Shown here: positions 30,379 through 64,000 of the stretch, in pieces
Numbering within the stretch: the first letter of the stretch is position 1
How the letters are laid out: every line of letters starts with the position of its first letter
Assembly (NCBI GenBank): GCA_024711025.1
Contig: JANJTP010000002.1
Location: 62,001-126,000, forward strand
Source of the DNA: Solirubrobacteraceae bacterium
GTDB taxonomy: Bacteria > Actinomycetota > Thermoleophilia > Solirubrobacterales > Solirubrobacteraceae
Direction of reading: 5' to 3'
DNA: 64,000 nt
Notes under the pieces: generated by a model
Databases searched by the model: none
The model's input: the letters and a program-made list of their open reading frames with translations, nothing else
What the model was told of the DNA's origin: nothing
Program-made: the position numbers and the translations under genes

Positions 30379-30460
30379 GGGGGGATGCCCGAGTGGTTAA
30401 AGGGGACGGGCTGTAAACCCGTTGGCTCTGCCTACGCAGGTTCGAATCCTGCTCCCCCCA
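30379..30460 (+). tRNA. tRNA-Tyr (anticodon GTA)
   Basis: An 82-nt type II tRNA. The acceptor stem is GGGGGGA paired with TCCCCCC, the discriminator base is A, and CCA is not encoded. The anticodon stem ACGGG/CCCGT encloses CTGTAAA, giving anticodon GTA. A 13-nt variable arm and the T-arm GCAGG-TTCGAAT-CCTGC follow, as expected for bacterial tRNA-Tyr. Confidence 0.97.
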
Positions 30461-34989: not shown

Positions 34990-35062
<73 letters not shown>

Positions 35063-58130: not shown

Positions 58131-62387
<4,257 letters not shown>

Positions 62388-63175
62388 CGCCCCGGCGGCG
62401 TCTGCGGACGCCTGACGTCCCCGACGGCGACCCACCGTGCTTAGTAGGCACTATCGGGTCGCCGGCGTGGACGTCATCCATCCCGCAGCCGCGCGCCGGG
62501 CTGGCGGCGTCTGCGGGCGCCTCGCGCCACCCGTGGCCGGCCACCGTGCTAGCGCACTATCGGCCGGCCACGGTCGTCGCGATTGCATCCCGCGGCCGCT
62601 CGCCAGGGTTCTGGCGGTGTCTGCGGGCGCCTGACGCCTCCGACGGCGACCCACCGTGCTTAGCGCACTATCGGCCGGCCACGGTCGTCGCGATTGCATC
62701 CCGCAGCCGCTCGCCGGGCTGGCGGCGTCTGCGGGCGCCTGACGCCCCTGGGCCCGCGGCCGGCGCCTCGTCCGGCCGGGAAGGGGCTTGGCGGTCCGGG
62801 CCGAAGCTAGTCGAGCGTGTTGACCGACGCTCGCCATCGACCGGTCGAACGCTCGAGCGGAGTGGGCTCGAGCGGCCGGATCGCACGATCGCAGCCCTCG
62901 GCCGACGGGTCGCCGCCGCCGCTCATCGCGCCCACGCGACCACCCGCCGCATCCTCGCTGCCACTGCCCGTAGAACGCTTTCCGCAGCCGGCGAGCCGGG
63001 GGCTCGTCGCGGATATCGGCACGGGCCGGGAACGCGCGCGGCGCGGTGCGGCGAGGCGCTCGGACGGCTACCCTGCGTGGGACGCATCGTGCTCGAACCG
63101 GGCTTCGTCCGCTTCGATCGCGAGATTGCCGAACGCCAGGCCGGGGGCCCGCCGCCCCGTGCGTCGCCCCCCCAA
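62388..63175. other. 788-bp intergenic region after rpoC
   Basis: No convincing gene is visible. The first 360 bases are the tandem repeat array. The remainder (62747-63175) holds short Arg/Pro-rich frames on both strands without ribosome binding sites or recognisable motifs. A TACCCT box at 63069-63074 may be the promoter of the next gene. Confidence 0.6.
62394..62746. repeat. Tandem ~109-bp repeat array with nested hairpin, 3.2 units
   Basis: Units start at 62394, 62503 and 62613 with a partial fourth at 62721, each opening GGCGGCGTCTGCGGGCG or close. Each full unit contains ACC-GTGC-4 to 7 nt-GCAC-TATC. In unit 1 it is enclosed by CGGCGACCC/GGGTCGCCG. In unit 2 it is enclosed by CCGTGGCCGGCC/GGCCGGCCACGG. 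Unit 3 has the left arm of unit 1 and the right arm of unit 2. It begins 7 bases after the rpoC stop. Confidence 0.85.
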
Positions 63176-64000
63176 ATGAGCCTCAATCTCGGCATCCTCC
63201 TCGCGCTCATCAGCGCGCTCGCGGGCAACGCGGCCTTCTTCCTGAAGCATCGCGGTGCCGTGGCAGCCGCGCCGGTGGACATCCGCCATCCGCTGCGCAG
63301 CGCGATCGGGCTCTGGCGCTCGCGGTGGTTCGCCGCGGGCATGGCCGTCGGGCTCGTCGGATGGCTGCTCCACGTCGCCGCGCTGACGCTCGCGCCCCTG
63401 TCCGTCGTGCAGGCGGTCATCGCGGGCGGCGTGGCGCTGATCGCCGTCATGGCCGACCGCCTCTTCGGCCTGCGAGTCGAGCGCCGACAGTGGTGGGGCG
63501 TCGGGCTGACGGCGGTCGGGCTGATGCTGCTCGCCGTGACGATGCCGCGCGTGACCGGTGCGAGCGCCTCGTACTCGCTCGCCGCGCTCATCTCCTTCGA
63601 GGCCGGCCTGCTGGGCGTCGGGGCCCTCCTGATCATCGGCCCGCGGGCCGCCGGCGCTCGCGCCGAGCACCACGGGATCGCACTGGCGGCGGCGTCGGGC
63701 ATCCTGTTCGGCGTCTGCAGCGTCTCCATCAAGGCGCTCTCGGGGCTGGTCGGGATGCAGGGCGCGATCGCGCTGCTCAGCCCTTGGACCGCGGTGGCGC
63801 TGCTCGCCTCGGCCAGCGCGTTCTACGCCTCGGCGCGCAGCCTCCAGGTCGGCGGCGCTGTCGAGGTGATCGCGATCACCGGCAGCGCGGCGACGATCTG
63901 CACCATCGCGGGCGGCGTCCTGGTCTTCAGCGATCCGATGCCCGGCGATCCGCTCGGGATCACGCTCCAGGCGATCGCCTTCCTCCTCGTCATCGGCGCG
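63176..64000 (+). CDS. Multi-pass membrane protein, DMT/NIPA-like, 3'-partial
   Basis: The frame runs off the right edge with 275 residues visible. It has at least eight membrane helices, for example LGILLALISALAGNAAFFL, AAGMAVGLVGWLLHVAALT, QAVIAGGVALIAVMADRLFG and ALAAASGILFGVCSVSIKAL. The pattern of EamA/NIPA-type transporters is likely: two paired halves with a short R-x-W loop. ATG at 63176 has no ribosome binding site. An in-frame GTG at 63089, 15 nt after a TACCCT box, would add 29 residues and is an equal candidate. Confidence 0.78.
   Translation, partial: MSLNLGILLALISALAGNAAFFLKHRGAVAAAPVDIRHPLRSAIGLWRSRWFAAGMAVGLVGWLLHVAALTLAPLSVVQAVIAGGVALIAVMADRLFGLRVERRQWWGVGLTAVGLMLLAVTMPRVTGASASYSLAALISFEAGLLGVGALLIIGPRAAGARAEHHGIALAAASGILFGVCSVSIKALSGLVGMQGAIALLSPWTAVALLASASAFYASARSLQVGGAVEVIAITGSAATICTIAGGVLVFSDPMPGDPLGITLQAIAFLLVIGA

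Follow-up and report, generated by a model that had tools for sequence, protein, structure and literature searches.

Directly behind the TGA stop codon of rpoC (62385-62387), the window, i.e. the whole 64,000-nt stretch of Solirubrobacteraceae DNA analysed here, carries an array of hairpin units that share a conserved core but are closed by different arms. This locus raises the question of whether such hairpins are kept for their fold, and by what route they came to stand behind the gene.

The hairpin array behind rpoC and its family

The array comprises three head-to-tail units followed by a truncated fourth, with a unit spacing of 108-110 nt (Table 1). A sequence-only reading of this DNA had described units 1 and 2 as closed by different, perfectly complementary arms, which is confirmed here with 9/9 paired positions in unit 1 and 12/12 in unit 2. 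The arms described there are the tips only, as the helix of unit 1 reaches outward to about 62391-62499. That reading covered units 1 and 2 and omitted unit 3, whose arms do not pair. The inner helix of unit 3 is broken (6/11 arm pairs are standard) while its outer helix is intact, and its makeup is as expected from recombination between tandem copies.

Table 1. Features of the rpoC array (positions are those of the window)
Feature	Position	Strand	Basis
rpoC (RNA polymerase beta')	58131..62387	+	NCBIfam TIGR02386 and NF011498, E 0
Unit 1, full imperfect palindrome, A-type arms	62391..62499	+	covariance-model match 62386-62499, 104 bits (own-genome search)
Unit 1 left arm CGGCGACCC	62425..62433	+	sequence
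Unit 1 right arm GGGTCGCCG	62456..62464	+	sequence
Unit 2, full imperfect palindrome, B-type arms	62500..62608	+	covariance-model match 62495-62606, 109.8 bits (own-genome search)
Unit 2 left arm CCGTGGCCGGCC	62531..62542	+	sequence
Unit 2 right arm GGCCGGCCACGG	62562..62573	+	sequence
Unit 3, chimera: A-type left half and B-type right half	62610..62718	+	covariance-model match 62605-62717, 87 bits (own-genome search)
Unit 3 left arm CGGCGACCC, as unit 1	62644..62652	+	sequence
Unit 3 right arm GGCCGGCCACGG, as unit 2	62673..62684	+	sequence
Truncated left part, fourth unit	62719..62750	+	direct-repeat families D1 and D2

A second array in the same genome stands behind secG (L010, G000:C58), begins at the stop codon and shows the same A-B order. 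The A-type and B-type unit pair is common to both arrays with 207/220 columns identical, demonstrating that arrays spread as blocks. Units 1 and 2 of rpoC are thus not derived from each other in place, and therefore these two units alone prove little. A more diverged copy of the family lies on the same contig about 1.06 kb before the window start (G000:C27:60832-60944, 58 bits). The window also contains two tRNA genes (30379-30460 and 34990-35062, Rfam RF00005).

The core CCGTGCT-N-GCACTATCGG has 17 exact occurrences in the 3.1-Mb genome, compared to 0 for the reversed control. Using a covariance model we found about 24 copies in this genome, a count that leaves out weaker opposite-strand matches to the same copies, and many of these are arrayed at ~107-110 nt spacing. 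The start of contig C47 and the end of contig C48 carry copies, and therefore the repeats probably broke the assembly there; the fragmentation of the genome conceals the flanks of some copies. We then aligned 19 copies by sequence alone (alignment A1). The A1 consensus is a ~109-nt imperfect palindrome comprising, from the outside inward, an outer helix, a conserved CGCC / ATCCATC internal loop, a TGACG/CGTCA-type helix and the variable arms, inside which follow an ACC / TATC loop and a GTGC/GCAC tip. Among 88 copies the least variable columns include internal-loop positions (5' CGCC and 3' CAT) and the G of the tip CCG, and across genera several of the unpaired loop positions hardly vary.

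Comparison of the hairpin units with the Rfam families gave no match at the curated score, and the literature search for an already described family returned analogues only. The hairpin family is apparently undescribed so far. Two sets of candidates were set aside. An exact-pattern scan of GTDB contigs returned at least 114 stretches, of which those inspected are single unrelated sites at chance level, and it was not used. Matches with a longer loop in genomes G096 and G102 (L019, L020) look coding and are considered non-members.

Folding and compensatory change

The tips of units 1 and 2 fold considerably better than dinucleotide shuffles (z -5.2 and z -6.8, respectively; 0/200 shuffles as good). 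This is further supported by the folds of the whole units, with -72.1 kcal/mol (z -7.1) for unit 1 and -75.3 kcal/mol (z -5.8) for unit 2. Unit 3 folds no better than shuffles, be it the tip (z +0.5) or the whole unit (z -0.85).

In A1, 93.9% of the cells are paired and double changes occur in 17/32 pairs. The covariation score is 0.457, compared to 0.176 with shuffled partners as a control for column composition, and falls to 0.02-0.09 when the partners are slid by 1-3 columns. As the copies are related, we also used a tree-aware null, based on a phylogeny of 88 copies that come from several genera, in which the inferred substitutions are redistributed over columns branch by branch and all column pairs are scored. 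At E<0.05 this yields 16 pairs, of which 14 belong to the predicted structure and the remaining 2 nest on its diagonal; E-values below about 0.02 are not resolved because the null is our own implementation with 60 null alignments. Covariation in the 88 copies hence exceeds that expected from phylogeny. Consistently, arms pair to 88% with their own partner and to 61% when arms are swapped between copies. Since covariation holds under both the composition and the relatedness controls, pairing is maintained.

These data bear on the further claim of the sequence-only reading that both arms changed with pairing kept, as selection for a hairpin would leave. The compensatory change across aligned copies is statistically real with both controls, and unpaired arms are far from being as frequent as paired ones: at least 9/11 standard arm pairs are found in 18/19 copies, the exception being unit 3. 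Covariation as such, however, does not demonstrate the footprint of selection. Both arms of a quasi-palindrome can also be altered at once by template switching (PMC8794818), and because this process, too, creates covariation, selection for structure is not proven by these pairs. We consider selection for the hairpin structure likely; the case for constraint rests on the persistent conserved internal loops, the number of arm types and the sense-strand, stop-adjacent placement.

Mobile copies in related genera and placement behind stop codons

A model built from 35 copies (R2) matches 63/232 genomes of the order, in 26/54 genera. In an even sample of the phylum (296 genomes) the R2 matches are confined to genomes of the own family, and no match is found outside the order. 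The phylum is presumably the Actinomycetota, given that a congener encodes integration host factor of the actinobacterial type (NF041260).

Near-identical, sharp-ended copies are present at unrelated places in three genomes of related genera (G125, G228 and G207). These copies are non-coding, multi-copy, smaller than 200 bp and precise at their ends, as expected for miniature inverted-repeat elements (MITEs), and the four measured copies of G125 have 164 bp each. The window copies (~109 nt) have edges that are less sharp than those of the mobile form. In G125, G228 and G207 the hairpin extends to self-complementary ends with CTAR on both sides. In relatives of G125 the corresponding genes end without an element, and a single CTAA, CTAG or CTGA occupies the site. 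We refer to the mobile form as type II and to that of the window as type I. CTAR is found at the left end of 34/61, the right end of 36/61 and both ends of 25/61 type II copies, compared to 0/70, 4/70 and 0/70 for type I, a contrast that is partly circular because the types were split by genus after viewing the gene context. The TA target (C-TA-R) occurs at type II ends only and is absent from the window's own type; type II ends are self-complementary, and a target duplication, if present, would be of 2 bp (TA) or 4 bp. One end of the type II copies lies at a stop codon, and both orientations occur (26 sense, 20 antisense); relative to the modelled core the stop codon is mostly at a fixed distance, -21/-22 or +29. 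The copies of genome G138 (L326-L333) have ends that differ between copies, each largely self-complementary, which is unusual for a terminal repeat recognised by a transposase.

In the window's own genus 32/36 copies, from six genomes, begin within ~15 nt of the in-frame stop of a sense ORF. Their orientation is sense only in 28, antisense only in 2 and both in 4 of these 36 copies, a count that is free of the circularity noted for types I and II. The upstream genes identified with Pfam or NCBIfam comprise a threonine dehydratase-like gene (ilvA-like), guaA, secG, sepF, ftsZ, a flavin reductase, divIC, sufB, purH, the actinobacterial-type integration host factor (mIHF; NF041260, in a congener) and ribonucleotide reductase (RNR), with H+-PPase also among those identified across genera, and the other gene calls beside copies are simple ORF calls. 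At the 3' end of ftsZ (L142, G000:C62) the last residues and the stop apparently derive from the inserted element, with the TGA inside GCGCCTGACGCC.

Copies are present in both the window's genome and the genome G095 behind four genes, namely guaA, secG, ftsZ and an unnamed one, where the overlap expected by chance is very small with about 13 loci each. Copies behind sepF, H+-PPase, sufB and rpmB recur in other genome pairs. Most congeners have no copy on the 3' side of guaA, and in sequence the copies are closer to others of their own genome than to the same-gene copy elsewhere. Both observations are as compatible with recurrent gain and loss of insertions as with conserved function.

Taken together, we favour, with a probability of roughly 55%, a mobile palindrome that is retained as a hairpin of the 3' UTR, i.e. 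an order-specific family of non-autonomous elements whose fold is under selection and which acts on the level of RNA. In this reading the units are copies of small palindromic elements. Their mobile form, found in related genera, is a foldback of ~140-170 bp whose ends are self-complementary; it enters C-TA-R sites, predominantly at stop codons, and does so in both orientations. The window's genus may have lost these ends, which would leave a ~109-nt hairpin with conserved internal loops. This hairpin has spread and been duplicated in tandem, and it is retained almost exclusively on the sense strand, immediately after the stops of housekeeping genes. It is most likely transcribed as part of the mRNA 3'-UTR and may act as a transcript-end, anti-exonuclease or processing element, with the fold presumably maintained by selection and template-switch repair from arm to arm contributing. 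That it acts in RNA is suggested by the strand bias together with the conserved loops. The persistence of the broken unit 3 counts against this explanation, as do the missing U-tract, the closer resemblance of copies within a genome and the lack of a copy behind guaA in most congeners.

A purely selfish palindrome is a less probable reading, which we hold to be somewhat unlikely. Here, covariation would result from template-switch correction together with a few spreading arm subtypes, and the placement at stop codons would reflect tolerated or targeted insertion. Template switching has indeed been proposed, from reconstructed histories of RNA genes, to create and maintain stems (PMC8794818). 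Arm types travel as blocks, as the A-B pair is common to the rpoC and secG arrays and unit 3 is recombinant, and the presence of type II at stop codons in either orientation is also consistent with selfish spread. However, arm-to-arm correction would tend to erase the mispaired loops, which are conserved in nearly all copies, and the sense bias of 28 to 2 in the own genus is unexpected at a symmetric target unless there is selection or oriented insertion.

Possible mobilisers and comparison with known systems

An origin as a RUP- or Correia-like MITE, moved by an IS630/Tc1-mariner transposase, concerns the mobiliser and is otherwise compatible with the mobile palindrome kept as a 3'-UTR hairpin; we regard this origin as unlikely. 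IS630 reportedly prefers CTAG (Tenzen and Ohtsubo 1991, as cited in PMC2170065). In type II, TA stands at both ends within C-TA-R, which agrees with the insertion of IS630-family elements at TA with duplication of TA (PMC2170065), and RUP, with 107 bp, is TA-targeted as well (PMC2229807). Yet a search for DDE_3 (PF13358, IS630) in 12 element-bearing genomes gave no match in the window's own genome and seven others (G000, G095, G101, G207, G057, G138, G174 and G072), and no autonomous element sharing the G125 ends was found by end sequence. Ends shared with a resident IS630, by which an IS630-derived MITE would be recognised, were therefore not found. In addition, the ends in G138 vary between copies while staying self-complementary.

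Because arms and ends vary between copies yet remain self-complementary, we also consider a more speculative reading, to which we give little weight: a mobile element recognised by complementarity, not by end sequence, would insert at stop codons and in one lineage would have turned into a sense-strand 3'-UTR RNA element of core housekeeping genes.

A 3'-UTR RNA motif or transcription terminator inherited vertically and never mobile is improbable. It would account for the sense bias and for copies at the same gene across genomes and genera (guaA, secG, sepF, H+-PPase, sufB, rpmB and ftsZ), but is at odds with the near-identical bounded copies at unrelated loci, the uninterrupted sites in relatives, the identity between the rpoC and secG arrays and the lack of a copy behind guaA in most congeners. 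Prediction of intrinsic terminators with a U-tract gave 0 sites in 62300-63200; as no U-tract follows the hairpin, a plain intrinsic terminator is not supported. A REP/BIME element moved by a RAYT (Y1) transposase would likewise form arrayed extragenic palindromes near gene ends, but is highly improbable, as Y1_Tnp (PF01797, RAYT) has 0 matches in the own genome (of which ~3% is missing) while 5/14 control genomes match, and as the unit has ~109 nt with one orientation throughout each array.

With its many copies, arm types, conserved loops and an occasional broken recombinant, the family provides a natural data set to test selection for hairpins versus template-switch repair. It also links a mobile palindrome that targets stop codons to 3'-UTR elements, possibly domesticated, that follow rpoC, ftsZ, guaA and further core genes. 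If domesticated, such an element offers a route for a whole set of mRNA ends to acquire a common structure.

Among known systems, an intrinsic terminator resembles the units as a G+C-rich hairpin just behind the stop codon, but here no U-tract is found, extra conserved loops are present and the unit extends over ~109 nt. REP/BIME elements are also extragenic palindromes 3' of genes with several units per array; the present family differs from these and their RAYT in that no Y1 transposase is found and in its ~109-nt unit, conserved internal loops and head-to-tail arrays. RUP and Correia/NEMIS share the small size (about 107 and 155 bp), the dispersed non-coding repeats, the inverted ends and the terminal TA, and NEMIS RNA has been proposed to form stem-loops cut by RNase III (PMC2229807). 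In contrast to these, the copies described here are concentrated at stop codons, and their arms, and even their ends, vary but stay complementary; the window copies lack TA-ended inverted repeats, and no IS630 is found in the own genome. Structured cis-RNA motifs of the Rfam type have in common with the family a long, conserved and covarying hairpin on a fixed strand relative to the gene, the latter as seen in the own genus. Unlike such motifs, the present hairpin has no Rfam match, stands behind many unrelated genes rather than upstream of one pathway, and has mobile relatives.
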